Shown in pieces: positions 2,764 through 61,265 of a DNA stretch of 64,000 nucleotides; position 1 is the stretch's first letter; each line of letters starts with the position of its first letter. A program made the translations under genes and the position numbers. The DNA comes from Corynebacterium falsenii (GTDB lineage: Bacteria > Actinomycetota > Actinomycetes > Mycobacteriales > Mycobacteriaceae). The stretch is taken from positions 1 to 64,000 of the forward strand of contig NZ_CP083646.1 of NCBI RefSeq assembly GCF_020099275.1. Direction: 5' to 3'. The notes under the pieces are model-generated. The model made no database searches, was not told the origin of the DNA, and saw nothing but the letters and a program-made list of their open reading frames with translations.

Positions 2764-2786
2764 TCTCTTTTTCTCCCGACGCCACC
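2764..2786 (+). repeat. Dispersed motif copy (T-rich tract + CGACGCCACC), intergenic eccC/eccD
   Basis: Reads TCTCTTTTTCTC then CCGACGCCACC. One of about 21 copies in the window; see findings. Confidence 0.55.
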
Positions 2787-2799
2787 CCACGCCATGCTT

Positions 2800-2805
2800 T
2801 ACACT
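2800..2805 (+). promoter_or_regulatory. Possible -10 element for eccD
   Basis: TACACT in the 251-base divergent region between eccC and eccD, about 80 bases before the eccD start. No convincing -35 is visible. A copy of the dispersed CGACGCCACC motif lies just upstream (2764-2786). Confidence 0.3.
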
Positions 2806-2885
2806 AGCGGCGTATGGGGACATCGCCGGTTGGGTACCGGGCGGTGGCCTTGGGAGGGAATTGTTACCGATGAAAGTGGGGGTTC

Positions 2886-4064
2886 ATGCTCGCGTTGAGC
2901 ATCTCCGTGCCGTCGAAGGGCACAACGATTAACGCTGCGATTGCCGATCACGTTCCCGTGGCGGAGTTGATTCCGCACCTGGTGGAGCCGCAGCCGGGCG
3001 AGCACTGGGTGCTGCACCGCGCGATTGGTCAGGTCCGCCCGGAACACACGCTGGCTCAAGCGGGTGTGCAACCGGGCGAGCTCCTCACCCTGGCGGTGGC
3101 TCAGGCGCCCGCCCCGCCGCAGGAGGCGGTGGAGGAGCTCACCGGCCCGGTGGGGCCCAACCCGGCCACGTGGGTGGCGGCGCTCATCGTCGCACTGTTC
3201 TCCGTGGCATCGGCCGCGGTCTTTGCCGCCCGGACCTCAGGGATCGGCTGGCGCCCGATCGACGTGCCGCAGGTGTTGCCGTGGCACTCCCCCACCCATC
3301 CGCTGATGTCCTCGGCGGTGCTGGGTATCACGGCGCTCGCGGCGTTGGCGTGTGCGGCGGCCTCGCTGCACATCCGGAACTTTCACCTGCTGGCGGCGGT
3401 GTTGGGCTTCGGCGCAGGTCTGCACATCAACGTACTCTGCGCCGCGGTGTGCGCCGCGCTGCTCGTGTGGCGCTCCGGTCCGGTGCGCATCTGGTGCGTT
3501 GTGGTGGCGGTGTTCGCGGCACTGAATGTGTGGCCGGGGTTCACGCTGGCGCTGGCTCTTGTTGCGCTGGCTTATTCCGGCCAGATGGCCATCGGTATTG
3601 CCGGAATTCGTCTGCCGAAGGTTCCCGCCACGGGCGTGTTCCACCCGCCGACGGCCACCCGCGCTGGCGCGGTGGTAGCGGTGCACTCGGCGATCGTCGT
3701 GGCACTGTGCTGCGTGATCCTCGCGTGCGTCGTTCAGATCGCACCGTGGGGTGCTCCGCTGGATGGGTGGACATGTGCGCTGCTCATCGTGCTCGCCGTG
3801 ATGGGGCTCAGCGCCCGATCGACCCGCCCGGTCCACGCCGTGGCGGTGGCCTCGACCAGCGCACTGATCCTGCTGTGGTTGGCGCTGCATGTGCCGTGGG
3901 GTGTGGCGGTCCTCGTGCTGGTGGGATTGCCTGCGGTGCGCATCTCCTCGCCCACGGTCGGTCGCGTCGTTGATTGGATCGAGGCGCTGGCCTTCTGCGC
4001 GGCGATTCCCTTGGCCTTGGAGCAGACTAGTGTTTTCGACGCCATCAGGGGGATCGGCTCGTGA
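2886..4064 (+). CDS. eccD: EccD-like type VII secretion membrane channel protein
   Basis: A 392-residue protein of the EccD type. Residues 1-80 look like the ubiquitin-like YukD domain (LSISVPSKGTTINAAIADH, then LAQAGVQPGELLTLAVA). After an acidic linker come about 10-11 membrane helices from residue ~97 to the end. EccD forms the membrane vestibule of the ESX translocon together with EccB, EccC and EccE. It is divergent from eccC, and its TGA overlaps the GTG of mycP (GTGA), so the two are co-translated. It is shorter than mycobacterial EccD (about 460-500 residues). The codons close to its end contain a copy of the dispersed motif (4031-4046). Confidence 0.85.
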   Translation: MLALSISVPSKGTTINAAIADHVPVAELIPHLVEPQPGEHWVLHRAIGQVRPEHTLAQAGVQPGELLTLAVAQAPAPPQEAVEELTGPVGPNPATWVAALIVALFSVASAAVFAARTSGIGWRPIDVPQVLPWHSPTHPLMSSAVLGITALAALACAAASLHIRNFHLLAAVLGFGAGLHINVLCAAVCAALLVWRSGPVRIWCVVVAVFAALNVWPGFTLALALVALAYSGQMAIGIAGIRLPKVPATGVFHPPTATRAGAVVAVHSAIVVALCCVILACVVQIAPWGAPLDGWTCALLIVLAVMGLSARSTRPVHAVAVASTSALILLWLALHVPWGVAVLVLVGLPAVRISSPTVGRVVDWIEALAFCAAIPLALEQTSVFDAIRGIGS

Positions 4065-5143
4065 TTATCCGACCGGATGGCACGCAGGATTCGTGCCAGC
4101 AGCCCACATTGGGCAGCGCGATTCCCCTGGATGTGGGCCCGGGTGATCCCGTGGCCGACCAGCACGCGCTAGAGCACATTCACGCCCTGACCACCGGGCG
4201 GGATGTGCCCGTGGCGGTGATTGATACGGGGGCATCCGTTCCCGGTGTGACAGGCGATGACAACCACTGCTACCTGCACGGCACCGCCGTGGCGAGCGTG
4301 GTGAAAGCACTGGCACCCGGTGCGGCCGTCACCAGCATCCGGCATGCTCCGCAGACCACGAGCGCCCAGGGCACCGTCGCGGACCTCATTGGCGCCATCA
4401 ACGCGGCGGCGGCTGGCGGGGCGCGGATTATCAACATCTCCATGGTCGCGTGCAGCGGCACGCCCGAGCTCTCCGCAGCACTCCAGCGGGCGATGGAGGG
4501 CGGGGCGCTCGTGGTGGCGTCGACGGGAAATACCGGCCAGTGTGAGCCGGGGACGGTGCCGTATCCGGCCGGTGTGGAAGGTGTGCTGGCGGTGGGCGCG
4601 GTGGAGGATCCGTTCGCGACGGACAGCGCCGATGCCGGGCGCATCCCGGCGCCATACAGTGCGCCGACCTCCGTGGTGGATGTGTTCGCGCCGGGTGGGC
4701 CGGTGTCTGCACAGCTCGCCGTGGGAGGCGCGGGTGGCAAGGTGCACACGATCGTGGGCGATCCGGCGCCGTTTGTTGGCACGAGTTTTGCCGCCCCCTT
4801 CGTCTCTGCCACGGCGGCGCTCGTGTGGGAGCGTGATCCTGGGGCGACGGCGGAACAGGTGCGCTCGATCCTCGTGGATTCCGCCGCCCTCGGCGGCGCG
4901 GTGGGAGACATGGCGGAGCCGCTGCGCGTCGTCGATCCGTTGGCTGCGGTCACCGCGGCGATGGATCAGGCGGGCGGGACCCGCGTGGGTCAGGTGAGCG
5001 AGCAACCGATCCCAAGCGCCGTGGTGGCGGGCCAACCGTGGCACCCAGAACCGGTGAATGTCACGGTGCCGGTGGTGTTGGCGGTGGTCGTTGTTGTGGT
5101 GGCCATCGCCGCCCTGATCGTCCGGGCGCGCTACCGCCGCTAG
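4061..5143 (+). CDS. mycP: Mycosin: subtilisin-like serine protease of the type VII secretion system
   Basis: A 360-residue S8 peptidase. The catalytic Asp is in VAVIDTGASVPG (~residue 50), the His in CYLHGTAVASVV (~69), the oxyanion Asn region in VVASTGNTGQC and the catalytic Ser in FVGTSFAAPFVSA (~245). A single C-terminal membrane helix (about residues 332-354) is followed by a basic tail, as in mycosins. The early Cys in CQQPTL matches the Cys near the mature N-terminus of mycosins, but only ten residues precede it and no signal peptide is seen; an in-frame stop at about 4030 prevents a longer start. It begins at GTG overlapping eccD. Its TAG lies in a CTAG shared with the eccB stop. Confidence 0.88.
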   Translation: MIIRPDGTQDSCQQPTLGSAIPLDVGPGDPVADQHALEHIHALTTGRDVPVAVIDTGASVPGVTGDDNHCYLHGTAVASVVKALAPGAAVTSIRHAPQTTSAQGTVADLIGAINAAAAGGARIINISMVACSGTPELSAALQRAMEGGALVVASTGNTGQCEPGTVPYPAGVEGVLAVGAVEDPFATDSADAGRIPAPYSAPTSVVDVFAPGGPVSAQLAVGGAGGKVHTIVGDPAPFVGTSFAAPFVSATAALVWERDPGATAEQVRSILVDSAALGGAVGDMAEPLRVVDPLAAVTAAMDQAGGTRVGQVSEQPIPSAVVAGQPWHPEPVNVTVPVVLAVVVVVVAIAALIVRARYRR

Positions 5144-6327
5144 GACCTGCCCGATGCGCTGTGGCGAGCGCGCTGCTCCGTGAGCAGACCCGCGTCCGGC
5201 AGCAGGGATAGCGTGTGGAACGTAGTGGGGTGATCCGAGTCAAACCCCAGGGCGCGCAGGTCCTCCTGCGACCCCACGTGGAACCGCTGGCCGGTGTCCG
5301 TGACCAGCACATATCCCCGCTCGGTGCGCAGCGCCGATGTGCCCCTCGGCCCCAGGTAGGCAGGTGGGTTGTCTGCTTCCAGTGTGGTATCGATGCTCTG
5401 GGCTGCGGGCCCGGTGGGTTCCATCAGTCCGGGCTGTCCGGTGCAGACGCGTGGTGGCGTCGCGAATGAACCCACCGATTCCGGAATGCCCGTGAGCAGC
5501 GACGCGCTGGGCTGGGCCATGACCTCGGCCAAGGTGGCGGTGGCGGCCGCGTGGGGTGTCATGGCTTCGGCGAAATCGCGGCGCAGGCCGGTGAGCTCGG
5601 CCACTCCCCCGGCGCCGGTGAGAAACGCGCGCTCGCCGGAGTGGATCACGCGGCCGGCAACGTCGAATGGGGCGGGCAAGCCCGTGAGGCCCGTGGGCAT
5701 GGCGATGTCCGCCGCACGCCGGAAGGCCCCCACCGCGCGGTCCGAGGCCTGCACCGGCGTGGCGCCCAGAGCGCGGGCGCCTTGCGGGTCGATGAGCGCG
5801 CGGGTGGTGCCGGTGATCAGCCACGTCCCAGACGGTGCCGTGAGCACCGCGTGTTCGTGATGAGCAGACGACTCCGTGGCAACCACCGTGCCCGGGTCGC
5901 ACGCCATCCACTCCCGCGGTTCGGCCGGGGCTAAGCCCGGGACGGTGGGAATGCCCATCGGCTCGCCGGTGGGAAACTCCGCGAGCTGCTGGGCGGTGCT
6001 GGTGTGAACCTCCACGGGCTTGCGCAGCACCAGCCGCGCAGAGGCCACGTTGGTGATCGGATGAAAGCGGTCATCGAGGCGCAGGTGGAGCGTGCCGGTT
6101 TCGTCGGCAACCAAGACGGCCGAATCGATGCTCGGCTGGGGCCTCAGCAGCCCCAGCATGACCGCACCGCCGGCGATGAGGCAGTTCAGCAACACCCCGA
6201 CGATCTGCGCACGGCGCTGGCTCCGCAGCGGGTCGTGGGCCATCCTCGGATCGCCGATGACCAGCGCGAGCTCGAGGCGACGCAGCAGAAAATTGAATCC
6301 AGAAACTTGCAAACCGGTGGTGCGCAC
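5140..6327 (-). CDS. eccB: EccB: type VII secretion core membrane protein
   Basis: A 395-residue protein. The N-terminus carries the EccB hallmark (RTTGLQVSGFNFLLRRLEL) at residues 2-20, a single membrane helix at about residues 42-64, and a large outer domain with the repeat-like segments of the EccB fold (ITNVASARLVL; ATPVQASDRAVGAF). Two Cys residues in the outer domain (ACDPGT, RVCTGQ) fit the conserved disulfide. GTG at 6327 is chosen because it places the hallmark at the very N-terminus; upstream codons reach 6558 but show no family similarity. It converges on mycP, and both stop codons use the same CTAG at 5140-5143. It is divergent from the next gene. Confidence 0.85.
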   Translation of the reverse strand: MRTTGLQVSGFNFLLRRLELALVIGDPRMAHDPLRSQRRAQIVGVLLNCLIAGGAVMLGLLRPQPSIDSAVLVADETGTLHLRLDDRFHPITNVASARLVLRKPVEVHTSTAQQLAEFPTGEPMGIPTVPGLAPAEPREWMACDPGTVVATESSAHHEHAVLTAPSGTWLITGTTRALIDPQGARALGATPVQASDRAVGAFRRAADIAMPTGLTGLPAPFDVAGRVIHSGERAFLTGAGGVAELTGLRRDFAEAMTPHAAATATLAEVMAQPSASLLTGIPESVGSFATPPRVCTGQPGLMEPTGPAAQSIDTTLEADNPPAYLGPRGTSALRTERGYVLVTDTGQRFHVGSQEDLRALGFDSDHPTTFHTLSLLPDAGLLTEQRARHSASGRS

Positions 6328-6421: not shown

Positions 6422-7381
6422 ATGAACGCAACTACTCTGCGGGCACTGGGGCCTGTCGCTGGCGACGGGTGGGTCGGCTGGGTCGCCGTGGGCACGGTGG
6501 TGGTCGTGCTGGTGGGGGCGGCGGCGCTGCTCATCGTGCTGTCGCGGCGGGATGCCACGCCCGAGCGCGCCTATTTCCGCCTGTACCCCACCCAGGACTC
6601 CCTGTGGGGCGAGCCGGTGAGTCGGCGGATCGACTCCGCCCGGCTTGTCGAGGGGCTAGGGCTTCGGCTTGAGCTGGGGCTTGGACTCGGTTCTGGTTCA
6701 GGCGCGGGTTCGGCAGATCAGGCAGCGTGCCTGGTCGCGGATGTGCCGTGGGGTTTTCCGCGGCGCTCGTCCGGGGCGCATGCTTCCTCCGGCCCCAGCA
6801 CCGTGATCTCCATTCCTGCCGACGCCACCCCGCGCCTCCCCTTCGCCGCCGCCGGCTGTGGGGTCCGCGCCACGGCGATACCGCAGCCGCAAGCGTGGGT
6901 GAGCTTGGGACAATTCCGCCCTCTTCCGCCCGTTGTGGAGGTCCGGCCGAATCCGGGGTGGATGCTGGGGATCTCGCCGGCGGGACATGCGGTGCGCCTG
7001 CACGCCATTCCGGGATCCACGGTGGTGGTTCTTGCCGCGGCTTCGGCGGTTCCGATGGTGCTCAGCGGGATGTGTTGGCCGCAGGATGCGGTCTCGCTCG
7101 TCATGCCCGGTGCTCAGGAGGACAGCGCCTCCTGGCTATCCCGGTGCCGATCCGCCTGGGAGGATGCGTGGGATCCGATGACCACGCGGGTGGTGGTGAT
7201 CCCGGCGTCTCAGCACACAGATGGGCTCGCGGACCTGGGCGCGAAGACAGGCATTGAGGCGGATATTGTGGCAGACGTTGTCGTGTCCATCGATATCACC
7301 AGCGGGCAGGGCACGTTGACCCACCGTAATCACCGCGAGTTCTTCACGCTGGCGCACCAGCCTAGACTCGCCACCCGCTAG
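6422..7381 (+). CDS. Type VII secretion-linked membrane protein in the EccE position (unassigned)
   Basis: A 319-residue protein with one strong N-terminal membrane helix (about residues 19-42), a low-complexity segment of Gly, Leu, Glu and Ser at ~80-100 (GLGLRLELGLGLGSGSG), and a soluble C-terminal half with Val/Ile-rich strands (TRVVVIPAS, ADVVVSIDI). I do not recognise a known domain with confidence. Its position after eccB suggests EccE, the remaining core component of ESX translocons, but mycobacterial EccE has two N-terminal helices and only one is clear here. The TAG at 7379-7381 is part of a CTAG that also supplies the stop of the convergent membrane-protein gene. Confidence 0.6.
   Translation: MNATTLRALGPVAGDGWVGWVAVGTVVVVLVGAAALLIVLSRRDATPERAYFRLYPTQDSLWGEPVSRRIDSARLVEGLGLRLELGLGLGSGSGAGSADQAACLVADVPWGFPRRSSGAHASSGPSTVISIPADATPRLPFAAAGCGVRATAIPQPQAWVSLGQFRPLPPVVEVRPNPGWMLGISPAGHAVRLHAIPGSTVVVLAAASAVPMVLSGMCWPQDAVSLVMPGAQEDSASWLSRCRSAWEDAWDPMTTRVVVIPASQHTDGLADLGAKTGIEADIVADVVVSIDITSGQGTLTHRNHREFFTLAHQPRLATR
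6812..6830 (+). repeat. Dispersed motif copy inside the EccE-position gene
   Basis: Reads ATTCCTGCCGACGCCACCC. A weaker pyrimidine tract than other copies; see findings. Confidence 0.4.
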
Positions 7382-9810
7382 TTGGAGCTCTGGTCCTGGA
7401 AGTCGAACTGGGTGGCGCTTCCCGACCGCCCGGCGGCGTCGGTGGCACGGGCCTTCTGAACGTCCGCCTCGGCGGCGGCACGGTCCCACTTCTGCGGGCG
7501 CGGGAACAGCGAACCATTCCGGGGTTCCAGCGGCGGCAGCGGATCGGGGGAATCGTTTTCTGCCCGGATGGCCTTGAGCTCGGCGTCGGTGAATGCTGCA
7601 TTGACGGCGAAGATGACCGTGTTGCCGGCCTTGTACACCGGGGTGACGCCCGGCGCGAACCACAGCCCCTCGGTCTGGGCCGGAATGTCCTTCTGGAATC
7701 CCCAGATCGGCGGCGGCGAGACCACGATGTAGGTGACTCCCAAGTCCTTGGCCGCGAAGTCCACGGCGTTGGCGTACTCCGGACGGTCGCCCGGCATACC
7801 CGCGCCGATGAGGTTCGGATTCCACATCATGAAGTTCGTGTTCGATGTGGGATCCACGCTGGGCCACAGGTAGTGGCGGTGCAGAGCCGGCAGCGCTTCG
7901 AGCGGGTACATCCAGCCGGAGCCCTCGTTCGGGTTGTTCGCAATCACGCCGTCGTAGGCGTGCGGCTGTTGAGACAGCCACTGGTAGGCCTCGATCTCGT
8001 CCTCGTCGATTTGGCGGTATTCTCGCGACGCAGCCACGCCGAACCAGTACACCGCATCCTTCGAACTTTGAGTGACATTGACCAGCACGATGGCCACAAC
8101 AACGGCTGCTGCCGTGCCCACCACGGTGAACGCCCGCGATGTCTTGCGCCACTTGTGCTGCTCGATGTTCTCCTTCGCCTCCAGCCAGCCGCCGAAGACA
8201 AGGCGAATGAGGGCCGCGATGGGCACTGCGGCGAACACCGCGAGCAACAGGGCGACGGGCAGGATGAGCCGGTGCGTGGTGTTGTAGTGCAGGGATCCCA
8301 CGGCGCCGGCGAGGTCGCCGACGATTCCGCTGAAGTGCTTCACCGAGTGCACCGCCACCACGGCGAAGGCCAGGTACGCCAGGGGTGCCCAGATGTTGCG
8401 ACGCCAGAAGATGAGAATCAGCCCGCCCGCGGCTGCCAGCCACAAAAGCCACCACTGGATGCCGAAGTCCGCCGCGTGGCGGGTCTGGAGTTCCAGCACC
8501 ATCTTCCAGGAATGCCAGCGGTCAAAAGGTTGCTCGTCGCTGAAGGCTTGAACTTCGCTGGCCAGCCCCAGGCCCTCAATGAACTGGGGAGCCACCAGGA
8601 GCAGAGTGATGAGCAACGCCGCGGCCATGTAAGCCACGTCGCGGACACGAGCCACGGCACCGCGGCCGAAGCGGTTGGATACCTTCCACACCGTCTCCTG
8701 CCCCTTCGTGGCGGGAACCCAGAGGCGGTAAAACAGCCACCAGCTGGCCACGAGCATTCCCACGACCGTGACCACGGACGGGTGCATCATGCCCGCACCG
8801 GCCAGTGCGAGGCCCGCGGGCAGGATGAACACCGGCCGCGAAGGAACCATCATGAACAATGCGGCGCAGATGCCCACCATGGCGATGCCAGCGAGGTACG
8901 GCCATGCGCCCACGTAGTAGCCGATGTAGAACAGGGCCACGATGCCGGAGCAGATGATCGCGGCGAAGGCCGCAGTGAGCGCAGCAGTGAAGCTGCGACG
9001 GCCGATGACCATCCACCCCAGGAAGGCCGCGGAGATCGGCAAAGCCACGCCCGGCAGCACCAGGCTAGTGACGTTGCTGGCCACCACGGGGCTGACCCCC
9101 GTGAAGGACTGGAAGAAGAATCCCATCACGTGCCACGCGGTGGGATAAAACAGCGAATCCTGGGTTTCGTAGTTCTGCAGCGGCCCCATCAGCGTGGACG
9201 AGCCGATGCCGGTCTCCATGATGTAGCGGATCGCGGAAGCGTGCCATAGGGAGTCCCAGCCCTGGAACACGTTGGCCAGGCCGTCCGGGGCTTCCTCCAG
9301 GTCGGTAAAGGCGCGGTGCAGGATCAGGGAGGCGCCGGTGATGACGCCGGCCAGCGGCACGATCCACGCCGGGTCGGCCATTCCGCCGCGGCGGCGGGGA
9401 GAGGTCCACCAACCGCGGATTCGCTCCCACCGGGTGCGAGTCACTGCTACGTCAGCACCATCGGCGGCATCAGAGGTCGAGGGATCCGTGGTGGCGTCGG
9501 ATGAAGAGGATGATGAGCGAGAAGAAAAGACGCGGGAGAACCGGGCGCGCCACCGAGCGCGCGAAAAGGCGATGCGCCACAGCAGACACAGCACGCAGAA
9601 AATGATGGTGCCCACGATGAGAGAGGTCTTTGTGACGGCCGTGCCATTGCGGCCGTAGATGTATGCCAGCGTGGAAAACACCCCGGCCGTGATCGGCAGG
9701 CTGGCGCTGATCGCCCACGGCAGGCGCAACCCTGCGCACCATCCGACCAAGGTTCCGGGCACCATGAACACCGCGATGGCGGTGAATACTGCTGTCCAGG
9801 CGCTGATCAT
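7378..9810 (-). CDS. Large polytopic membrane protein, DUF6541-like (possible GT-C-type glycosyltransferase)
   Basis: About 810 residues with 14 or more hydrophobic helices over the first ~600 residues and a soluble C-terminal part. A Ser-rich linker after the third helix contains SSSSSSDATTDPST. The architecture resembles DUF6541 proteins found beside truA in corynebacteria; a GT-C glycosyltransferase-like role in envelope building is inference and no catalytic residue was identified. ATG at 9810 is preferred because it starts directly with a membrane helix (MISAWTAVFTA) and AAGGAG lies 13 bases upstream; GTG at 9894 is the alternative and would add 28 residues. It lies 160 bases after truA, probably in the same transcript. 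It shares a CTAG stop with the facing gene. Confidence 0.6.
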   Translation of the reverse strand: MISAWTAVFTAIAVFMVPGTLVGWCAGLRLPWAISASLPITAGVFSTLAYIYGRNGTAVTKTSLIVGTIIFCVLCLLWRIAFSRARWRARFSRVFSSRSSSSSSDATTDPSTSDAADGADVAVTRTRWERIRGWWTSPRRRGGMADPAWIVPLAGVITGASLILHRAFTDLEEAPDGLANVFQGWDSLWHASAIRYIMETGIGSSTLMGPLQNYETQDSLFYPTAWHVMGFFFQSFTGVSPVVASNVTSLVLPGVALPISAAFLGWMVIGRRSFTAALTAAFAAIICSGIVALFYIGYYVGAWPYLAGIAMVGICAALFMMVPSRPVFILPAGLALAGAGMMHPSVVTVVGMLVASWWLFYRLWVPATKGQETVWKVSNRFGRGAVARVRDVAYMAAALLITLLLVAPQFIEGLGLASEVQAFSDEQPFDRWHSWKMVLELQTRHAADFGIQWWLLWLAAAGGLILIFWRRNIWAPLAYLAFAVVAVHSVKHFSGIVGDLAGAVGSLHYNTTHRLILPVALLLAVFAAVPIAALIRLVFGGWLEAKENIEQHKWRKTSRAFTVVGTAAAVVVAIVLVNVTQSSKDAVYWFGVAASREYRQIDEDEIEAYQWLSQQPHAYDGVIANNPNEGSGWMYPLEALPALHRHYLWPSVDPTSNTNFMMWNPNLIGAGMPGDRPEYANAVDFAAKDLGVTYIVVSPPPIWGFQKDIPAQTEGLWFAPGVTPVYKAGNTVIFAVNAAFTDAELKAIRAENDSPDPLPPLEPRNGSLFPRPQKWDRAAAEADVQKARATDAAGRSGSATQFDFQDQSSN
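9488..9510 (-). repeat. Dispersed motif copy inside the DUF6541-like gene
   Basis: On the minus strand: TCCTCTTCATCCGACGCCACCAC. It encodes SSDATT in a Ser-rich linker. Confidence 0.5.
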
Positions 9811-10837: not shown

Positions 10838-11624
10838 GTGCTCCGCGATCTCGGCTGTCCTTCGCAGCATGCTGCTGGCTAGCTTCGATGACCGCGGCGT
10901 CGCGCTCGGCATTGCGGTCAGCGCGGCGCATACGGGCCGCGTTGGCCGTGGGGCGCAGCTTCGTCTGGTACAGACCCACGCCGAGGACCACCATCCAGAT
11001 CATGAGGATGTCGAACAGCATCCGGTCGACCACGCCCTGCCATTCGCCCACTAGCAGCGCCAGCAGCGGCCCGCCGATCGCGAGAACCAGCAGCACCATG
11101 CTCGTGGTCAGCAGCCCACCCGGCAGGATCGGCCGGTGCTCGGCCACGTACTTCTTTTTATCCTTCGACGCCACCACACCGGCCTTATCCTGGATCGTCT
11201 TGGCGATCGCGGCGCCAGCGGCAACGATGAGGAAGAAGCCCTGCACGAGCGCGGCGGTGTTGTGTACCGTCTCGTTGACGTTGAGCGGAATAACGCCCGC
11301 CACAGCGGCGGCGATGCCGGCGAGGATCAGTGACGCTCCGGCGAGCCGGGCCAGCCGCTGGGCGATGAGCACCGCGCCCACCGTAACCATGAGGATCGCG
11401 GCGATAACGAGGCCGCCGTTGAACCAGAGGTGGCCGGGGCTGCAGATGTAGCGGGAGCCGTAGGAGTTTTGATACAGGTCGCACTGGCTCACGCCAAGGT
11501 CGCCGATGAGGTTGTACTGCAGGGAGTACGAGCCTTGCCACTGGACGGTGGCGAGTGCTTGGCCGATGAAGTAGATAAGACCACTGAGTACGGCCAGGAT
11601 TCCTGCGGTTTTCCGTGCTGTCAT
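10824..11624 (-). CDS. DUF998 family integral membrane protein
   Basis: A 266-residue protein with six or more membrane helices. It carries the DUF998 pattern early on ([12 protein letters not shown] followed by [15 protein letters not shown]). The C-terminal ~40 residues are charged and cytoplasmic. The function of the family is unknown. AAAGGA stands eight bases before the ATG. The end overlaps truA. A copy of the dispersed motif inside the gene (11151-11180) encodes the segment [10 protein letters not shown] in a loop between helices. Confidence 0.75.
11151..11180 (+). repeat. Dispersed motif copy inside the DUF998 gene
   Basis: Reads CTTCTTTTTATC then CTTCGACGCCACCACACC on the plus strand, antisense to the gene. 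One of the strongest copies. Confidence 0.55.
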
Positions 11625-11732: not shown

Positions 11733-11754
11733 TGTGGGCGTCGAGAATAAAGAG
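11733..11754 (-). repeat. Dispersed motif copy upstream of the DUF998 gene
   Basis: On the minus strand: CTCTTTATTCTCGACGCCCAC, within the short gap between the M20 stop (11757) and the DUF998 start. The core is imperfect (GCCCAC). Confidence 0.4.
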
Positions 11755-11756
11755 AC

Positions 11757-15255: not shown

Positions 15256-17085
15256 TCACTCGTCGATGACGGCGGGGCCTTCCTCGCCCTCGTCGACCAG
15301 CGCGCCGGCCGGTGGCACGGCATCTCCCCAGCTCACGGGTTTGCGCAGGATCCAGGTGTCCTTGCCGCCACCGCCGCGAGAACTGTTGACGATCAGCGAT
15401 CCCGCCGCCGCCGTGCGGGTCAGTCCCGCCGGCACGGTGAATGCTTCGAGGTTTTTCGCGTAGCTGCTTCCTGCTCGCTCGTCTCCGTCGTCGGTGTGGC
15501 CTTGTTTATCCGACGCCACACCGCTGTCCGCCTGGTGTGCCGCTGCGGGGCGCACGTGGACAAATGCCCGAAGGTCCACGTGGCGGGGGTGAATGGTCAT
15601 CTCACCGTTCGTGTCCGCACCGTACGTGGGCAGGGTGGAGAGGCGAACCACGTCTTGGGCGATGAACTGCTCGGGTGTGTCCTTGAGCTCTTGGGCGCGC
15701 TTCTCCAGTTCCTCGGCCGTGCACTCCGGGCCGATGGTGATGCCGTTGCCGCCGTAGCCATCCACGGGCTTGACGACGACCTCGTTGAGTCGACCGAGCA
15801 CCGCGTCGACCTCACCGGGCTTGTGGCACAGGCAGGTCGGCACTTGGTCGAGGAGGGGCTCCTCGTCGAGGTAGAAGCGGATCATCTGTGGGACGTAGGC
15901 GTAGATGGCCTTGTCGTCTCCCACGCCGTTACCGAAGGCATTGGCGAAGGCGAGGCGGCGGTTCTGCAGCGCGTCCTCAAGGCCTGGGCCCAGCACCTCG
16001 CCGTTGAAGCCGGTGGCGCCGAAGAGGGTGTCGCGCTCGATGCGGATGTAAACGACATCGAGGGGGTGCGCGTCGCCGGCATCGTCCTGGTAGTGGAGGT
16101 AGCCGTCGATGATCGCGAGCTTGTCCGGCGTCAAAATGGGGCAGTCGATGAGCTCGGCGATACGGCGGTGCTCGAACCATGCGGAGTCGGAGTCGCCGAT
16201 GGATAGCACTGCCATTGCGGGTTCGTTGGGGTTCTTGCCGTTCTCCGGGGCGGAGGCAGCGAGGGTATCCCGGATCATGTCGAAGGCCTCGGCCGGATCG
16301 TGCATGTCGTAGCCCTCCATGACGTCGTCATAGAGCTTGCGGGTGATGCGGCGCATGGAGTGGGAGAAGGCGATGCCGGAGGGAACGCGCAGGTTGTCTT
16401 CGAGCACGAACCAGCGGCCCTCGTCGGTGCAGACGAGATCCATGCCGCAGATGTGGGCGCGGACGGACCCTGGCGGCTGCAGGTAACCGGAGTCCTCATA
16501 CCCGGGTGCTCGTTGGAGGTCGAACTCGTCGATGATGCCCGCTTCGACGATCTTCTTCTCGCCGTAGACGTCGTCGAGGAAGGCGTTGAGAGCGCGGGCG
16601 CGCTGCTCGAGGCCTTCGGAGAGGAACGTCCACGTCTCGTCGCTGACGATGCGGGGGACGAAATCCATGGGGAATACCTGGGGCTCGTCCTCTCCGGTGG
16701 CGCGGAAGGTAATGCCTTCCTCGAGCTCCATGCGCTCTGCTGCTGCCTGGCGGTCATGCAGATCGCTGAGGCCGATCTCGGCGAACTTCTCCATGGCGTA
16801 GGCGTACCGCGGGCGGGGCACGCCGTCCGAGAATAGGGCCTCGTCCCACAGCATTGCCGAGGGAGAATCGGGCGTGTAGGCCGCGAAGAGGTTGGCATCG
16901 GTCGAGGGTTCCGCTTCCGCGTCGGGGTCGTACGTAGGAAGCGTCTCCTCGGACAGTTCGGCAGTCACGAGGGGGCTAGGCGCATCGTTGGGCGCTGCGA
17001 ATTCCTCGGCTTCGGTGATATTGCCGGTGACGGTCGGAGCAGCATCAGTCGCGGTGTAGTTGGTGTCATCTTGAGTGGGGCACAT
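15256..17085 (-). CDS. Circularly permuted ATP-grasp type 2 protein (DUF404/DUF407)
   Basis: A 609-residue protein. After an acidic, disordered N-terminus (~75 residues) comes the permuted ATP-grasp body: RPRYAYAMEKFAEIGL, VLEDNLRVPSGIAFSH, VVYIRIERDTLFG, FANAFGNGVGDDKAIYAYVP and the nucleotide loop VKPVDGYGGNGI. Members are predicted amide-bond ligases and are often next to an alpha-E protein and a transglutaminase; neither is here. Near the C-terminus an insertion (ASDKQGHTDDGDERAGSS) interrupts a family-conserved stretch and is encoded by a copy of the dispersed motif. There is no ribosome binding site; a TATTAT box eight bases upstream suggests a leaderless mRNA. Confidence 0.85.
   Translation of the reverse strand: MCPTQDDTNYTATDAAPTVTGNITEAEEFAAPNDAPSPLVTAELSEETLPTYDPDAEAEPSTDANLFAAYTPDSPSAMLWDEALFSDGVPRPRYAYAMEKFAEIGLSDLHDRQAAAERMELEEGITFRATGEDEPQVFPMDFVPRIVSDETWTFLSEGLEQRARALNAFLDDVYGEKKIVEAGIIDEFDLQRAPGYEDSGYLQPPGSVRAHICGMDLVCTDEGRWFVLEDNLRVPSGIAFSHSMRRITRKLYDDVMEGYDMHDPAEAFDMIRDTLAASAPENGKNPNEPAMAVLSIGDSDSAWFEHRRIAELIDCPILTPDKLAIIDGYLHYQDDAGDAHPLDVVYIRIERDTLFGATGFNGEVLGPGLEDALQNRRLAFANAFGNGVGDDKAIYAYVPQMIRFYLDEEPLLDQVPTCLCHKPGEVDAVLGRLNEVVVKPVDGYGGNGITIGPECTAEELEKRAQELKDTPEQFIAQDVVRLSTLPTYGADTNGEMTIHPRHVDLRAFVHVRPAAAHQADSGVASDKQGHTDDGDERAGSSYAKNLEAFTVPAGLTRTAAAGSLIVNSSRGGGGKDTWILRKPVSWGDAVPPAGALVDEGEEGPAVIDE
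15501..15522 (+). repeat. Dispersed motif copy inside the ATP-grasp gene
   Basis: Reads CTTGTTTATCCGACGCCACA on the plus strand. Antisense it encodes VASDK within an apparent insertion. Confidence 0.55.
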
Positions 17086-23210: not shown

Positions 23211-23246
23211 TGTGTCCTTCCTCTGCGGGGATTCGTAGTGGATTGT

Positions 23247-23270
23247 TCTTCTTTGTTTTCGACGCCACCC
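23247..23270 (+). repeat. Dispersed motif copy in the adk/map gap
   Basis: Reads TCTTCTTTGTTTTCGACGCC followed by ACCC. A strong copy that is intergenic and next to a terminator stem. Confidence 0.55.
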
Positions 23271-23276
23271 CACCCG

Positions 23277-39283: not shown

Positions 39284-39360
39284 TTTCGACGCACACTCTT
39301 CCCCCTTCACTTTAGGCAGAATTCCGCGAAAATCTTTGAATTCTGGCCGACTCGATTTAG

Positions 39361-39384
39361 TTTCCAATGATCGACGCCACCAGC
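39361..39384 (+). repeat. Dispersed motif copy, intergenic
   Basis: TTTCCAATGATCGACGCCAC then CAGC. The pyrimidine tract is weaker, and the core is intact. Confidence 0.4.
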
Positions 39385-41218: not shown

Positions 41219-42406
41219 CTATAACCAGTACGTTTCCACAGATTCGCCCTCCCGAACGAGGGTGTCCGCGGGGATCCGCAGCAGCACCGTCGCCGTCGCT
41301 GATTGCGCCAGCAGATGCGATCCACGCCCGCCGATCGGCCGGGAGCGCAGTGTTCCTTCTTTGTTCTCGACGCCGCCACGCACGAAACACTCCCGCCCCG
41401 CGATGCCCTGCACATCCTCCCCGGCAATGGTGGTGAACGGGGGCTGCGCCTCCCCCAAGGTCGGCGCGACGAACAGGCGGAAACTCACCGCCGTGGACAC
41501 GGGGTTGCCCGGCAGGCAGATCACCGGGGTGTCGCGGAAAGTGGCGAGCCCTTGCGGCCCGCCCGGTTGCTGGCTGACGTGGCCGAACCATCCGCCATGG
41601 GGTTCCAGCACCTGGCGGACGACCTCGAACTTGCCGTGGCTGATGCCGCCGCTGGTGATGATCGCATCGGGGCGGTATTCGCTGATGGCGCTGGTCAGCG
41701 CCGCTTCCAGTGCCTCGGGGGAATCGGAGGTGCTGATGTGTGCGGCCACCTCGATATGGTGGCGGTCGCAGAGGGCGGCGAGCATGGGGCCGTTGGCGTC
41801 TGGGATCTGGGCTGCGCCGCTGCCGCCGATCTCCTCGCCACCGGTGCAGATCACCACTCGGGCGGGCCGCAGCACGGGCAGGTCCTGCACCCCCAGCAGT
41901 GCCGCCGCGCCGACAGTGCGGGCGTTGACGCGGTGGCCTGCGGGGAAGAGCTCCGCACCTTTCGCCAAGTCGCTGCCGGCGCGGCGGATGAACTGCCCGC
42001 GGTCGGTGGCGGGTATTCGGACGTTCCCGCCGGTCACGAACTCGGGTGGGTCACAGCGTTCCACTGGGACGATCGCTGCGGTACCCGCTGGGATGCGAGC
42101 ACCAGTCATGATCGGTGCGAGGTGGGTGCTGATGGCGTCGGGATAAAGACGAGAAGGATCCGCACCGGCGGCGATGGTGGGGCCGACCGGGAAAACCCCG
42201 CCGGACAAGTGTTCTGCGGACAGGGCGTAGCCGTCCATCTGCGAGTTATCGAATGCGGGGGAATCCTGGGGCGCGGCGACTGCGGCGGCGAGGGTGCGGC
42301 CGATCGTGCGGGATGCGGGGAGGGTCACCACGGGGCGCGGGCAGAGCTCGCGGAGTGTGCGGCTGACTTCGGCGAGGTGCTCCTCGGGGGTGCGGGTGTG
42401 GCTCAT
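41219..42406 (-). CDS. moeA: Molybdopterin molybdenumtransferase MoeA
   Basis: A 395-residue free-standing MoeA with the substrate motif SPAFDNSQMDGYALSAEH, ARIPAGTAAIVPVE, GRGQFIRRAGSDLAKGAELF-like segment (TDRGQFIRRAGSDLAKGAEL), IITSGGISHGKFEVV and CLPGNPVSTAVSFRLFV. It is the second MoeA of the window besides the mobA fusion. Its ATG overlaps the modB stop (ATGA), tying molybdate uptake to insertion. A copy of the dispersed motif near its C-terminus encodes the antisense of VENKEGT, and another (42132-42154) lies in the N-terminal third. Confidence 0.92.
   Translation of the reverse strand: MSHTRTPEEHLAEVSRTLRELCPRPVVTLPASRTIGRTLAAAVAAPQDSPAFDNSQMDGYALSAEHLSGGVFPVGPTIAAGADPSRLYPDAISTHLAPIMTGARIPAGTAAIVPVERCDPPEFVTGGNVRIPATDRGQFIRRAGSDLAKGAELFPAGHRVNARTVGAAALLGVQDLPVLRPARVVICTGGEEIGGSGAAQIPDANGPMLAALCDRHHIEVAAHISTSDSPEALEAALTSAISEYRPDAIITSGGISHGKFEVVRQVLEPHGGWFGHVSQQPGGPQGLATFRDTPVICLPGNPVSTAVSFRLFVAPTLGEAQPPFTTIAGEDVQGIAGRECFVRGGVENKEGTLRSRPIGGRGSHLLAQSATATVLLRIPADTLVREGESVETYWL
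41353..41380 (+). repeat. Dispersed motif copy inside moeA (3' part)
   Basis: TTCCTTCTTTGTTCTCGACG then CCGCCACG. A long pyrimidine tract, with the core extended by one CGC. Confidence 0.5.
42132..42154 (-). repeat. Dispersed motif copy inside moeA (5' part)
   Basis: On the minus strand: TCTCGTCTTTATCCCGACGC then CAT. Confidence 0.5.
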
Positions 42407-46262: not shown

Positions 46263-46285
46263 CTGTGGTGGCGTCGACTATCTAC
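46263..46285 (-). repeat. Dispersed motif copy, intergenic
   Basis: On the minus strand: GTAGATAGTCGACGCCACCA. It lies between the nucleosidase and the Rv0909-like gene. Confidence 0.4.
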
Positions 46286-46379
46286 TACCATGGTGCGATG
46301 TACCGGGATGGATATATTTTCATCCCCGCGCCTCAACACGGCGCGTGAGTCACCACACAGAGAAAGGACCGTGAGCGCA

Positions 46380-50079: not shown

Positions 50080-50335
50080 GACAAATAAAAGTATTATCGT
50101 TTCGACCCCAGGGTCAAGCCGATCGCCGTCCTGATACTCATATTTCCTTAACTTCACTCACAGTTGAGTTCAATATATTTTCATGCACGATGTAATAGAT
50201 TCGTTACATTCTGCTGCTCAGCGGGCATGTTCGATTCCAAAACGGACACGCCGAGGGCAACAATGATGGCCAGATGCCTAGCCAGAGAGTAAGCTCGACC
50301 TAACATCACACATGGGGGTAATTTAGATATATTTT

Positions 50336-50355
50336 CATATATATCGCGACGCCAG
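50336..50355 (+). repeat. Dispersed motif copy abutting an AT-rich element
   Basis: CATATATATCGCGACGCCAG. Joined directly to an ATATATTTTCAT element. Confidence 0.35.
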
Positions 50356-50554
50356 GTGCCTCTACCCTGCCATTCCGATGGTTCTTTCTTATTCCCTCGC
50401 CTCACTGAGGACACCCCCACTACTGCCTCATTTCCCCTCGAAATCCCCGTTAATTCGACGCTGATGCAACGAAGGACTCCCACGACAACTTCTGTCATTT
50501 ACGCCAATTATCAACCCCAGGCCGCTAATACCCTGGAGGCCATCAGCAACGCAA

Positions 50555-52774: not shown

Positions 52775-53866
52775 CTACCTATCCACCTTTGCCACCGCCG
52801 CGGTGATAAGCGGGCTCACCTTCGGCAGCGACCACGCCACAGATAGCGGATTGATCGACGACGTCGCCGCAATGAGCGCATCCCGATCCAACCGCACCTG
52901 CGCACCAGCCTTCACCGCGGGCAGTTCCGCGAATTCCCCCGGCTCGGACGTCACACCGCTCGGTTGCCGGTGCACAATGAGCTGGGAGCTCCCCAGCCCG
53001 CTCAACCGGCTCACCGGTACACTCACCGCTCCCGGGTTGGCAGCCTGGGGCGCACCCTGCGTCACCGCCTTCACTCCCCCATCGACCTGCATACCCAGCT
53101 TCTGGAAATACGTGACAGGCGTGCTCTCCGGCACAAAGACCTCAGCCGTATCAGTCCCTGCCTTCCCCGCAGCGATATAGCTGAACGTCAGCGCCTCCCA
53201 CGAGGTCTGCTGTGCATCCGCGAACTGCTTATTGATCTCCTCGATGAGTGGCCCGCCGCCATGGCGCAGACCTAAGGCACCCGCAACCGTATCGATCTGC
53301 ACCTGCCAGCCAATCCTCCACGTCGACTTCGGATACGCCACCGTGGGCGCGATCGCCTCCAGTTGCGTGTAGTCCTGCTCGGTAATCCCCGAGTTCGTCG
53401 CCAAGATGAGGTCCGGCTCGTAACCCTTCACCGCTTGCGCCACGGACTCCCCCACCGCCCCGCTCGGGGCATCAAACAATGCAGGAAGCTCGGCATCCTT
53501 GCGCATCAGCGCTTCCTTGACCCACGGCAGATAGCCCTCTGGATCCGCGCCGAACTGCTGCTTTTGCATCGCCACCGGAATCACGCCCAGGGCAATCGCG
53601 ATCTCCGCGGAGTCCCGGCCGATCGTCACCACACGGTGCGGCTTGTTCTTCACCTTCGTGGTGCCGAACGCATGGTGGATCGTGGTTGTTTCTCCATCGG
53701 TTCCTTTATTCGACGCCGCACAGCCCGCAATTCCCACCGCCGTCACCGCGGCCAGCACAACGGCGAGCACCCAGCGGACAACGTGGGAGGGTCGGCTGGT
53801 GGCGTCGGATAAAGAGGACGATAAAGAGGACGATAGAGAGGACCCGGAAAAAGGAGAAACAGTCAT
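52775..53866 (-). CDS. Siderophore/iron ABC transporter substrate-binding lipoprotein (FepB/FecB type)
   Basis: A 363-residue lipoprotein. A cytoplasmic Ser/Leu-rich stretch precedes the membrane segment and lipobox VGIAGC (Cys about residue 48). The class III binding-protein fold follows: HHAFGTTKVKNKPHRVVTIG, ALGVIPVAM, YEPDLILATNSGITEQDYTQ, LEAIAPTVAYP. It should bind a ferric siderophore or heme; no permease or ATPase genes are adjacent. ATG at 53866 has AAAGGA upstream. The Ser/Leu stretch is coded by three 12-bp repeats, next to one dispersed motif copy, and a second copy sits at the lipobox region. Confidence 0.85.
   Translation of the reverse strand: MTVSPFSGSSLSSSLSSSLSDATSRPSHVVRWVLAVVLAAVTAVGIAGCAASNKGTDGETTTIHHAFGTTKVKNKPHRVVTIGRDSAEIAIALGVIPVAMQKQQFGADPEGYLPWVKEALMRKDAELPALFDAPSGAVGESVAQAVKGYEPDLILATNSGITEQDYTQLEAIAPTVAYPKSTWRIGWQVQIDTVAGALGLRHGGGPLIEEINKQFADAQQTSWEALTFSYIAAGKAGTDTAEVFVPESTPVTYFQKLGMQVDGGVKAVTQGAPQAANPGAVSVPVSRLSGLGSSQLIVHRQPSGVTSEPGEFAELPAVKAGAQVRLDRDALIAATSSINPLSVAWSLPKVSPLITAAVAKVDR
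53701..53722 (+). repeat. Dispersed motif copy just after the lipobox codons of the siderophore-binding gene
   Basis: TTCCTTTATTCGACGCCGCA. Antisense it encodes CAASNKG. Confidence 0.5.
53796..53817 (-). repeat. Dispersed motif copy near the start of the siderophore-binding gene
   Basis: On the minus strand: TCTTTATCCGACGCCACCAG. In frame it encodes LSDATS. Confidence 0.55.
53808..53843 (-). repeat. Three tandem 12-bp repeats in the siderophore-binding gene
   Basis: GATAAAGAGGAC, GATAAAGAGGAC, GATAGAGAGGAC on the plus strand. They encode a repeated Ser-Leu-Ser-Ser in the cytoplasmic N-terminus; such repeats can change copy number in frame. Confidence 0.7.
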
Positions 53867-59766: not shown

Positions 59767-60072
59767 TTACTGAATGTTGACGTCAACGCTTGCCGGAAGG
59801 TCGATGCGCATAAGAGCGTCAACGGTCTTCGGGGTTGGGTCGAGAATGTCGATCAGACGCTTGTGCGTACGCATCTCGAAGTGCTCGCGCGAGTCCTTGT
59901 ACTTGTGCGGCGAACGGATGACGCAGTACACGTTCTTTTCGGTTGGCAGTGGCACTGGGCCGACAACACGAGCGCCGGTACGGGTAACCGTCTCGACGAT
60001 CTTCTTGGCAGAAGCGTCGATAGCCTCGTGATCATAGGCCTTGAGCCTGATGCGGATCTTCTGTCCCGCCAC
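59767..60072 (-). CDS. rpsJ: 30S ribosomal protein S10
   Basis: A 101-residue S10 ([40 protein letters not shown]). It is the first gene of the S10 operon and has a GTG start. S10 is also NusE, a transcription antitermination factor. Confidence 0.98.
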
Positions 60073-60648
60073 GCTTGTCCTCTTCCTCAGCGTGTCCGCT
60101 GATTTCTCAGCAGACTGTCACGCCTCTTGTCTTGTCTTAACGCTGTCCGGCCTAAAGGGGCCTGGTCCAGTCGCCAGTTCGCTTTCGGTGTCTTACATTT
60201 ACTTGTCCAGTGCCTTGGTGTGGGCCCATGGAAAATGAACGTCTCGATATGGTCTGGCACGAGGTTTTTCAGCCTCTTGCTGCTATTCCATATTCATCAG
60301 ACACCTGGCTCCCACCTCCCCTATTGCGATGGGGAAGCGTGATCCACGCTAGGAAGGTATCTACCTTCGCTTACTGCCGCTGTTCATTTACCATGCCCCA
60401 TCATCCGGCACCCGCGGTCGGGCGTGTCGGCCTTACCCGCGAAAAGTACCGCACAGCAAAGCCTGCCCCGTTCATCATGACGAGGTTTCTTTACTGACGA
60501 TGGATCATGCTCACTTCACCATCGGCACCCTCTTGCCAGCCCCAATTGTTAATCGGACATGGCTCATGTGCCGTGTTAAAGCAACGTCACGTATCTAACC
60601 ACACTGATCACCCGCCAAGCAAATCACTTTTGGACTATCCTCGGAACC
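60073..60648. other. Promoter region between the S10 operon and the Asp23/Gls24 cluster
   Basis: 576 bases without a gene, divergent on both sides. It must hold the S10 operon promoter with a leader of unknown length and, at its right end, the leaderless asp23 promoter. No attenuator-like hairpin was identified. Confidence 0.5.
60636..60641 (+). promoter_or_regulatory. -10 box for a leaderless Asp23/Gls24 mRNA
   Basis: TATCCT, seven bases before the ATG at 60649, without a ribosome binding site. Confidence 0.45.
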
Positions 60649-61197
60649 ATGACTTCTTCGAACTCAAACACCACAGCACAGCAGACCTCTTCTGTGTCCC
60701 AGAACAACCAGTCCGCCACCAAGAACAACGTCCCGGCCCGTCGCCAGGAGCTCGATCACAACAGCTCCTTGGGTGATGCTGAACTGATCACCGAACAGGG
60801 CAACACCGCTATCGCAGACTCCGTTGTCTCCAAGATCGCTGGCCTCGCTGCTCGCGACGTCACCGGTGTCTACGACCTCGGCGGCGGCGCCACCCGCATG
60901 GTCGGCGCCCTGCGCGAGCGCATCCCGGGCTCCCGCGTCAACGTCCAGCAGGGCGTGTCCGTGGAGGTCGGCGAGCGCCAAGCAGCCGTGGACATCTCCA
61001 TTGTCGCCGAGTACGGCGTTGCCATCCACGAGCTGGCTGAGGCCATTCGCCGCAACATCGTCATCTCCGTGGAGCGCATGACCGGCCTCGAGGTCACCGA
61101 GGTCAACGTCACCGTTCACGACGTGCACCTCCCCGACGAGGAGTACCAGGACGATTCTGAGGAGCAGGAGGAGCGCCCCGCTCCCCGCGTTCAGTAG
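60649..61197 (+). CDS. Asp23/Gls24 family envelope stress response protein
   Basis: A 182-residue protein. A Ser/Thr/Gln/Asn-rich first ~40 residues, then the Asp23/Gls24 domain (~45-160): AIADSVVSKIAGLAARDVTG, SRVNVQQGVSVEVGERQAAV, YGVAIHELAEAIRRNIVISV, TGLEVTEVNVTVHDVHL. An acidic tail ends it. In Gram-positives such proteins form a membrane-associated scaffold anchored by AmaP and respond to envelope or alkaline stress. It heads a cluster of five Gls24-type genes. Confidence 0.92.
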   Translation: MTSSNSNTTAQQTSSVSQNNQSATKNNVPARRQELDHNSSLGDAELITEQGNTAIADSVVSKIAGLAARDVTGVYDLGGGATRMVGALRERIPGSRVNVQQGVSVEVGERQAAVDISIVAEYGVAIHELAEAIRRNIVISVERMTGLEVTEVNVTVHDVHLPDEEYQDDSEEQEERPAPRVQ

Positions 61198-61235
61198 GTG
61201 CTCACCGGCCTCCCGCGTCGGTAGCATTGCTCCTT

Positions 61236-61265
61236 CTTTTCTTTCTTTTCCTTTCGACGCCACTA
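61236..61265 (+). repeat. Dispersed motif copy, intergenic in the Gls24 cluster
   Basis: CTTTTCTTTCTTTTCCTTTC then GACGCCACTA. It has the longest pyrimidine tract of all copies (about 20 bases). Confidence 0.55.

Follow-up and report, generated by a model that had tools for sequence, protein, structure and literature searches.

A dispersed short word with lineage-specific spellings in Corynebacterium genomes resembles a DNA uptake sequence

The window analyzed here, a stretch of 64,000 nucleotides from Corynebacterium falsenii, carries a short, non-palindromic motif scattered over both strands, within genes as well as between them (Table 1). The initial annotation had described about 21 dispersed copies, and CGACGCC was indeed found at all 21 of the listed places. 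Ten of these are the exact 10-mer CGACGCCACC, and 11 are variants in which, for example, ATC, GCC, CAC, AGG or ACA follows CGACGCC. The overlooked copy brings the exact CGACGCCACC total for the window to 11, against 0.59 expected and a maximum of 3 in 100 dinucleotide shuffles. As previously claimed, CGACGCCA is absent from the prophage part (1-2440), where bare CGACGCC occurs twice (884 and 1469), and from each presumed ribosomal gene, these genes being named by reading their sequences. No Rfam family reached its gathering score within the window.

Table 1. Copies of the motif in the window, with strand and gene context
Positions	Strand	Copy	Context	Remarks
2765..2786	+	pyrimidine tract + CGACGCCACC	intergenic	
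4025..4046	+	CGACGCCATC copy	YukD-like gene	against two relatives' DNA, one single-base gap in flank, core gap-free
4513..4534	-	exact CGACGCCACC	antisense, subtilase-like gene	overlooked by the initial annotation (core 4513-4522); gap-free against two relatives' DNA
5453..5474	-	exact copy	sense, EccB-like gene	
6808..6829	+	exact copy	sense, coding gene	
9490..9511	-	exact copy	sense, DUF6541 gene	
11154..11175	+	exact copy + T-tract	antisense, coding gene	
11734..11755	-	variant CGACGCCCAC + T-tract		
15499..15520	+	CGACGCCACA + T-tract	antisense, ATP-grasp gene	
23248..23269	+	exact copy + T-tract	gap between adk-like gene and next gene	
33922..33943	+	exact copy	antisense, coding gene	
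36636..36657	+	CGACGCCACA + T-tract	sense, coding gene	
37275..37296	-	CGACGCCACA	antisense, coding gene	same gene as the 36636..36657 copy
39360..39381	+	exact copy	intergenic	
40217..40238	-	variant CGACGCCGCC		
41356..41377	+	variant CGACGCCGCC + T-tract		
42131..42152	-	variant CGACGCCATC + T-tract		
46267..46288	-	exact core	intergenic	no clear pyrimidine tract
50335..50356	+	variant CGACGCCAGG		behind AT-rich run; weak member
53699..53720	+	variant CGACGCCGCA + T-tract		
53798..53819	-	exact copy + T-tract of repeated TCCTCTTTATCG unit	intergenic by our own gene calls	
61243..61264	+	CGACGCCACT	intergenic	behind long pyrimidine tract

The genes flanking the copy at 23248..23269 are presumably an adk-like gene and its neighbor, judging from the proteins as read; the matching gap in C. 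suicordis and C. dentalis holds motif copies as inverted pairs. C. suicordis also has a copy about 25 bp from the place matching 15499..15520 (L061 9742). The protein encoded at 13003-15198, a candidate type VII secretion ATPase, was rejected as such, its Pfam match being to a prolyl-oligopeptidase-type enzyme; it served as an orthologue anchor, a use unaffected by the changed identity.

The over-representation extends to the whole genome, where CGACGCCACC occurs 381 times (183 forward and 198 reverse, 142 copies per Mb) compared with 61 (29 + 32) for a reversed-pattern control, and TTWTYCGACGCCAC occurs 41 times compared with 0. In a 464-kb sample consisting of the window and 20 stretches of 20 kb each, the motif family provided the top over-represented words after a CRISPR array was masked. 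The pyrimidine tract held up in this sample, which reaches beyond the window: T makes up 34-57% at each position from -12 to -1 of 87 CGACGCCAC sites, against a background of 18% and only 10-30% at the same positions of 20 sites of the control core CCACCGCAG. The T-rich enrichment is thus real, though a good tract does not accompany every listed copy, AGTAGATAGT standing before the core at 46267 (-) and an AT-rich run at 50347 (+). The tract adjoins the core on its 5′ side, and only the CGACGCC spelling shows it clearly. Apart from the tract, the core and a 3′ side that is C-rich and codon-periodic, we found no conserved flank in the sample. Four roles had been offered for the motif, namely a nucleoid or segregation protein site, a Chi-like recombination signal, an uptake signal and a tiny mobile repeat. 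Uptake tags that mark a cell's own DNA are known from Neisseria and Haemophilus.

Related words are present at hundreds to more than a thousand copies in other Corynebacterium (GCTTNTCGACG, GCTTGCCGATG and TTATTGACGCC, which occur in separate genomes at the thresholds used). Among 151 species genomes, CTTNTCGACG exceeded its control at least 5-fold in 95 and at least 10-fold in 67, with its largest count, 1472, in G135 and its highest ratio in G074 (1294 versus 28). CTTGCCGATG reached 157-548 copies versus 0-6 in nine genomes, all outside those 95, and TATTGACGCC reached 140-174 versus 0-4 in six, outside both groups. CGACGCCACC is not exclusive, as 24 of the 33 genomes in which it is enriched at least 4-fold are also CTTNTCGACG genomes. 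At these thresholds, 32 of the 151 genomes were assigned no word; this and the overlap count against an uptake role. Enrichment depends steeply on the exact spelling: across four genomes, GCTTNTCGACG is 82-fold over-represented when exact, 2.75-fold with one mismatch and 1.2-fold with two. De novo word lists, judged by reading, contained a related word in 21 of 30 sampled genomes and none in the other nine (G014, G018, G038, G047, G067, G083, G106, G127 and G132), despite whole-genome CTTNTCGACG counts of 1178 versus 33 in G018, 175 versus 24 in G047 and 693 versus 51 in G067. Outside the genus, none of 229 genomes from 30 other genera reached the 10-fold ratio or exceeded 100 copies per Mb, a density surpassed in 101 of the 151 Corynebacterium genomes; 26 of the 229 did reach 5-fold or more, and this, too, speaks against uptake.

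By our own gene calls, the 87 copies in the 464-kb sample comprise 32 in sense orientation, 35 antisense and 20 intergenic, so that no gene-strand preference is seen in the C. falsenii genome. Across the 20 stretches, copies per 20 kb have a mean of 5.65 and a variance of 5.50. This Poisson-like spread over both strands, genes and gaps would suit the sites of a chromosome-organizing or nucleoid protein that came to recognize different words in different lineages, with the T-tract as a possible bend or groove feature. We nevertheless consider such a protein an unlikely reader, because no regional enrichment appears in the 20 stretches, 67 of the 87 copies sit in coding sequence, and an essential protein that has many sites would not easily accommodate the respelling of hundreds of them inside one genus.

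Rather more improbable, in our judgment, is a self-identity mark for a non-polar intracellular defense, repair or recombination machine that spares or favors tagged DNA. Lineage-specific spellings and equal use of both replication strands would fit such a mark, as would the rarity of CTTNTCGACG in four phages (6 versus 2 for the reversed word in 180 kb). The same phages do contain CGACGCCAC, however (14 versus 4 for its control), and the best-known mark of this kind, Chi, is strand-oriented. The phage counts may also speak against uptake.

Replication-strand bias is absent from the motif, with leading:lagging counts of 161:148 over 18 other genomes. Chi-like and KOPS-like roles are weakened because this bias is lacking, and a strand-polar recombination hotspot or segregation signal now seems to us very improbable. 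The slight lagging-strand excess of CGACGCCAC in C. falsenii (32:45) leans toward one, as does the reverse complement here, GGTGGCGTCG, which is G-rich like some Chi words; against this, other spellings such as GCTTNTCGACG are not G-rich, and core words vary inside one genus.

The initial annotation held that the motif is kept in any reading frame. This is true of the antisense copies, which use all three frames (17/14/4, n = 35), but not of the sense copies, 29 of 32 of which share one frame (Asp-Ala-Thr). That preference, together with CTTNTCGACG counts that in many other genera moderately exceed those of the reversed control (median 3.1-fold, n = 229), would be expected if codon usage or base composition produced the motif, an explanation we nonetheless regard as extremely improbable. 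In 100 synonymous shuffles, 7.2 coding copies were expected (maximum 15), and 47 were observed; the count surpassed the largest synonymous shuffle in all 19 genomes tested, narrowly so in G018 (7 versus 6). Along with the copies found on either gene strand and between genes, this null backs the earlier proposal that DNA, not protein, is what selection or copying acts upon. Elsewhere, coding copies show a sense excess that counts against an uptake signal: 41:10 for CTTGCCGATG, for which the codon null predicts about 2.2 on each strand, 89:64 for CTTNTCGACG and 27:16 in G098. Coding copies of CGACGCCA in four relatives number 56 sense and 34 antisense.

When aligned with orthologues, copies look substituted rather than inserted. 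At ten sites of the window, alignment with the DNA of two relatives was ambiguous (59-78% identity, with six of the ten gapped near the site), so a protein-level test was used instead; sites 4515, 14775, 37277 and 42133 are gap-free at the DNA level where aligned. At the protein level, a usable orthologue was available at 94 of 354 sites, and 97 of the 105 resulting site/orthologue pairs align without a gap. The gap rate of 8/105 (7.6%), compared with 4.4% in control windows, counts against the uptake reading, and residue identity at motif codons is 0.607 versus 0.653, indicating slightly more tolerant positions. A tiny mobile repeat inserting its copies, which could claim in its favor the motif's numbers and dispersal, this small excess of gaps and the several gapped DNA-level alignments, is contradicted by the mostly gap-free orthologue alignments and by flanks that lack conservation beyond the features given above, and we give it almost no credence. 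Neighboring copies within 80 bp form 14 pairs (10 inverted) where about 14.5 are expected. The idea that inverted pairs act as terminators was rejected, as they show no excess and, in those of C. dentalis and C. suicordis, the T-tract is misplaced, on the wrong flank of the stem.

Among the roles offered, an uptake signal fits these data best, the polar roles being weakened and the mobile repeat contradicted. On balance, we favor reading the motif as a DNA-uptake-sequence-like self tag of Corynebacterium with lineage dialects, which would imply a receptor, biased uptake and natural transformation in these bacteria. Genes suited to such a process are present: the C. falsenii genome encodes ComEA, ComEC, TadA, T2SSF, TadE-like and helicase proteins, the pilus genes being of the Tad/Flp type. 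Throughout the 151 Corynebacterium genomes, ComEC is universal and a Tad-type ATPase scores above cut-off in 142; since both genes are nearly universal, their correlation with the motif is uninformative. The drafts G023, G074 and G091 gave no Tad-ATPase match. That G074, with the highest CTTNTCGACG ratio, is among them counts against uptake, its assembly being a 190-contig draft that is 90% complete.

A fuller version of the uptake model, to which we incline only by a hair, posits a genus-wide system in which a Tad/Flp-linked receptor prefers GCTTNNYGAYGCC or a T-tract-CGACGCCACC relative, spelled differently in each lineage, so that dialect acts as a mating barrier. ComEA and ComEC would bring in one DNA strand, and recombination would then place the tagged copy in the chromosome. 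If tagged fragments enter more often, point mutations toward the preferred word would spread by molecular drive, and copies would accumulate through substitution wherever genes and gaps tolerate it. A shift in receptor preference might then let the genome drift to a new spelling, giving rise to lineage dialects.

To our knowledge, uptake sequences are established only in the Neisseriaceae and Pasteurellaceae, both Gram-negative, and we know of no earlier system from a Gram-positive genus. If our reading is correct, Corynebacterium would provide the first known to us, and natural transformation, for which the genus is not known, would be widespread among its species. In a genus of actinobacteria with skin, animal and industrial species, such dialects would suggest that sequence-biased uptake evolved independently; they would give a motive to seek natural transformation in Corynebacterium and may predict which species exchange DNA. 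Several dialect/receptor pairs would help in finding the reader protein, and adding the word to DNA might aid the genetics of laboratory Corynebacterium strains. Even with an intracellular reader, a word of hundreds of sites respelled between congeneric species would be unusual. Among the literature matches listed (titles and abstract openings), we found no such word for Corynebacterium, in keeping with the earlier statement that no described element has this sequence. Nor did any match listed that prints one of six spellings concern Corynebacterium. Titles and abstract openings of the matches listed report no natural transformation for the genus, and this counts against the uptake reading. 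For the Corynebacterium genomes among those it surveyed for motifs, one study gives CRISPR repeats in its available part (PMC5217627).

Several known systems invite comparison. Chi (GCTGGTGG of E. coli) is likewise an over-represented, dispersed short word; unlike Chi, the Corynebacterium motif shows no replication-strand bias and has several spellings in one genus. The Pasteurellaceae USS similarly joins a short core to T- or A-rich sequence, whereas here the T-tract stands immediately 5′ to its core, clearly so for the CGACGCC spelling only. H. influenzae terminators are often built on two USS copies, according to a source available in part; in our data, by contrast, inverted pairs at close range are no more frequent than expected. 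For uptake words, the available text of PMC1939737 reports a steep fall in the mismatch spectrum, like that of GCTTNTCGACG, and proposes that USS accumulate via point mutation. The Neisseriaceae DUS is described in the accessible part of PMC3630211 as a 10-12-bp word with hundreds to thousands of copies, the top over-represented repeat. As in Corynebacterium, related species there have distinct spellings around a shared core, and some genomes lack an obvious word (PMC3630211, in part). The Corynebacterium motif differs in sequence and phylum, its receptor (a ComP-type counterpart) and transformation are conjectural, and its copy numbers are lower than the Neisseria counts in that part of PMC3630211 (142 per Mb; 381 exact copies here, 1472 at most). 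In Micrococcus luteus, the transformation machine comprises a Flp/Tad pilus with ComEA/ComEC, and the available portions of the sources mention no sequence preference (PMC6370729, PMC8467076). The C. falsenii genome holds the same gene classes as this machine.

The initial annotation had listed 21 places for the motif in the window, and the core CGACGCC is found at 21/21. The 10-mer CGACGCCACC has 11 exact copies there (0.59 expected from shuffling), and its abundance holds genome-wide, with 381 copies (183 forward, 198 reverse) on the single contig of 2,677,377 bases compared with 61 for the reversed pattern; the core with part of its tract, TTWTYCGACGCCAC, occurs 41 times in the genome against 0 in the control. 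In a 464-kb sample comprising the window and 20 spread stretches of the same genome, the tract upstream of 87 CGACGCCAC sites is 34-57% T at -12 to -1 (background 18%), with a pyrimidine at -1 in 86% of sites; on the 3′ side, position +9 is C in 70% of them and position +10 is A or C in 83%. The excess is 11.4-fold for exact copies, 1.5-fold at one mismatch and 1.2-fold at two. Copies are spread along the genome in a Poisson-like manner (mean 5.65 per 20 kb, variance 5.50, 20 stretches). The first word count was largely taken up by a CRISPR array in which CCCCGCTCAGGCGGGG is present 73 times. With this array masked, the motif family tops the over-represented words of lengths 8-12 (e.g. TCGACGCCACCA, 27 versus 0.5).

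Selection on the motif acts on DNA, as the initial annotation had proposed. When synonymous codons were shuffled among the called genes of the 464-kb sample, 7.2 coding copies of the 10-mer were expected (maximum 15 in 100 shuffles) and 47 were present; the count exceeded the largest shuffle in 19 of 19 genomes, in G018 barely (7 versus 6; G-numbers denote species genomes, L-numbers stretches cut from them). By gene calls made within this analysis, the 87 CGACGCCAC sites are 20 intergenic, 32 sense and 35 antisense, the non-coding share of the sample being 13.6%. The frame Asp-Ala-Thr is used by 29 of the 32 sense copies, as expected if copies persist where the protein tolerates them.

Related words are found in 21 of 30 relatives by our reading of de novo counts on sampled stretches. 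The two named relatives by one conserved window protein, C. dentalis (G071; 74% identity) and C. suicordis (G134; 71%), both have TTTTCGACGCCA at the top of their lists. TTCGACGCCACC heads the list of G010 and GCTTWTCGACG that of G099, with nearby spellings in G022, G042, G089, G105 and G141; CTTCTCGACG stands further down in G102 and G049. Other spellings are CTTNNCGACG (G098), TTATTGACGCC (G053), GCTTGCCGATG (G006, G052, G093, G110, G143) and CGACGCC-type words (G058, G065, G147). Two lists held other repeats: GTTTTGCAGAGT, unrelated to the motif (G106, L154-L156; 11 copies in 60 kb), and words such as TGCGGAGGTA (G067, L111-L113; 16-17 copies within 60 kb), which probably mark a further repeat array.

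Whole-genome counts in 151 species genomes of the genus separate these dialects. CTTNTCGACG exceeds its reversed control at least 5-fold in 95 genomes, 67 of which reach 10-fold or more; its largest count is 1472 versus 72, and its strand totals are 34,929 forward and 34,921 reverse. CTTGCCGATG reaches 157-548 versus 0-6 in nine genomes, none among those 95, and at most 55 elsewhere; TATTGACGCC reaches 140-174 versus 0-4 in six genomes outside both groups, and at most 26 elsewhere. Among the remaining 41, nine, including C. falsenii, carry CGACGCCACC at least 4-fold, and 32 of the 151 reach no word at these thresholds, including C. dentalis despite its de novo word. Overall, 33 genomes reach 4-fold or more for CGACGCCACC, and 24 of these are CTTNTCGACG genomes, probably because CTTNTCGACG often continues into CC. 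For GCTTNTCGACG in four genomes, the excess is 82-, 2.75- and 1.2-fold at zero, one and two mismatches.

Outside Corynebacterium, in 229 genomes drawn from 30 further genera of its family, the median excess of CTTNTCGACG over the reversed pattern is 3.1-fold (maximum 8.0); 26 genomes reach 5-fold and 0 reach 10-fold. The reversed pattern is thus a lenient control, and the genus stands out more clearly by density and by the 10-fold mark. Density is at most 86 per Mb in this outgroup and above 100 per Mb in 101 of the 151 Corynebacterium genomes; among the 95 CTTNTCGACG genomes the median is 252 and the maximum 518 per Mb.

Individual loci are collected below. The inverted pairs in C. dentalis and C. 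suicordis are not standard terminators, as their T-tracts lie outside the pair, and close inverted motif pairs show no excess over expectation.

Positions of individual features in C. falsenii and two relatives
Feature	Sequence	Position	Remark
Motif copy, single	window	23260	in gap 23229-23360
Inverted motif pair	C. dentalis, L060	3365-3400	gap matching window 23229-23360
Inverted motif pair	C. suicordis, L061	3344-3378	gap matching window 23229-23360
Type VII secretion locus	window	2886-6327	adjacent YukD-like, subtilase-like and EccB-like genes; presumably ESX-4-like
CRISPR array	L045	G000:C1:865098-869557	C. falsenii genome

From these sequence comparisons we infer, with modest confidence, that the motif is a DNA-uptake-sequence-like self tag subject to biased uptake. 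The strand of coding copies outside C. falsenii is a point against uptake, which does not predict a sense excess: sense:antisense is 41:10 for CTTGCCGATG (five genomes; about 2.2 each way in the codon null for this group), 89:64 for CTTNTCGACG (eleven genomes), 56:34 for CGACGCCA (four genomes) and 27:16 in G098. The 41:10 excess, counted on CTTG[CG]CGATG in G006, G052, G093, G110 and G143, is not explained by codon use. The motif is possibly instead the site of an as yet unnamed DNA-binding protein, or possibly an intracellular self-mark. Insertion of a mobile repeat fares worse. For 354 sites in motif-bearing genes of 22 genomes, partners in other samples (identity at least 45%) were usable for 94, giving 105 site/orthologue pairs, and 97 of these (92.4%) align gap-free over the motif and one residue each side; the gap rate of 7.6% is slightly above that of control windows (4.4%; 95.6% of 2100 gap-free) and far below what insertion would produce. 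Residue conservation at motif codons is slightly lower than in whole alignments (0.607 versus 0.653). A polar replication signal is made unlikely by near-equal leading and lagging counts, 161:148 in 18 genomes (dnaA was located in C. falsenii and 20 others, of which G093 and G132 were excluded; stretches near the presumed terminus were omitted), with 32:45 in C. falsenii.

For the uptake reading, ComEC is present in 151/151 genomes, and the Tad-type ATPase (TIGR03819) is above cut-off in 142, below it in six and absent from three drafts (G023, G074, G091). This near-universality makes a machine available; that it reads the word does not follow. The CTTNTCGACG ratio is highest in G074 (1294 versus 28), which gave no Tad-ATPase match; either part of the genome is missing from this draft or the pilus is dispensable. 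The C. falsenii pilus locus encodes a DEAH helicase (TIGR03817), a below-cut-off CpaE/Ssd-like match, TadA ATPase, T2SSF, DUF4244 and TadE-like proteins, and ComEA adjoins ComEC away from it. G001, G111 and G113 each have two ComEC matches, with the Tad ATPase split in G111, perhaps through breakage or frameshifts in competence genes; CTTNTCGACG is above control in all three (339 versus 44, 256 versus 55, 889 versus 41). Among the literature matches listed, none reports transformation in Corynebacterium. Phage counts come from 180 kb, made up of three phages of C. xerosis plus a 50-kb part of one C. glutamicum phage. CTTNTCGACG occurs there 6 times (33 per Mb) against 2 for the reversed control, but the C. 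xerosis phages contain 14 copies of CGACGCCAC (control 2 in these, 4 in all four); these counts speak neither for nor against uptake.

The phage, G074 and gap-rate figures lowered our confidence in both the uptake and the genus-wide readings; a genus-wide uptake-sequence system with dialects by lineage would be scarcely better than an even prospect. High copy number, DNA-level selection, absence of polarity, growth by substitution, Poisson-like spread, the steep fall with mismatches and spellings that differ by lineage agree as a set with the uptake sequences described for Neisseriaceae (PMC3630211); the motif is a candidate for this class, whose defining property is biased uptake. Micrococcus luteus has comEA and comEC homologues, and its transformation requires Flp/Tad pili (PMC6370729, PMC8467076); uptake-sequence accumulation has been modelled as molecular drive (PMC1939737).
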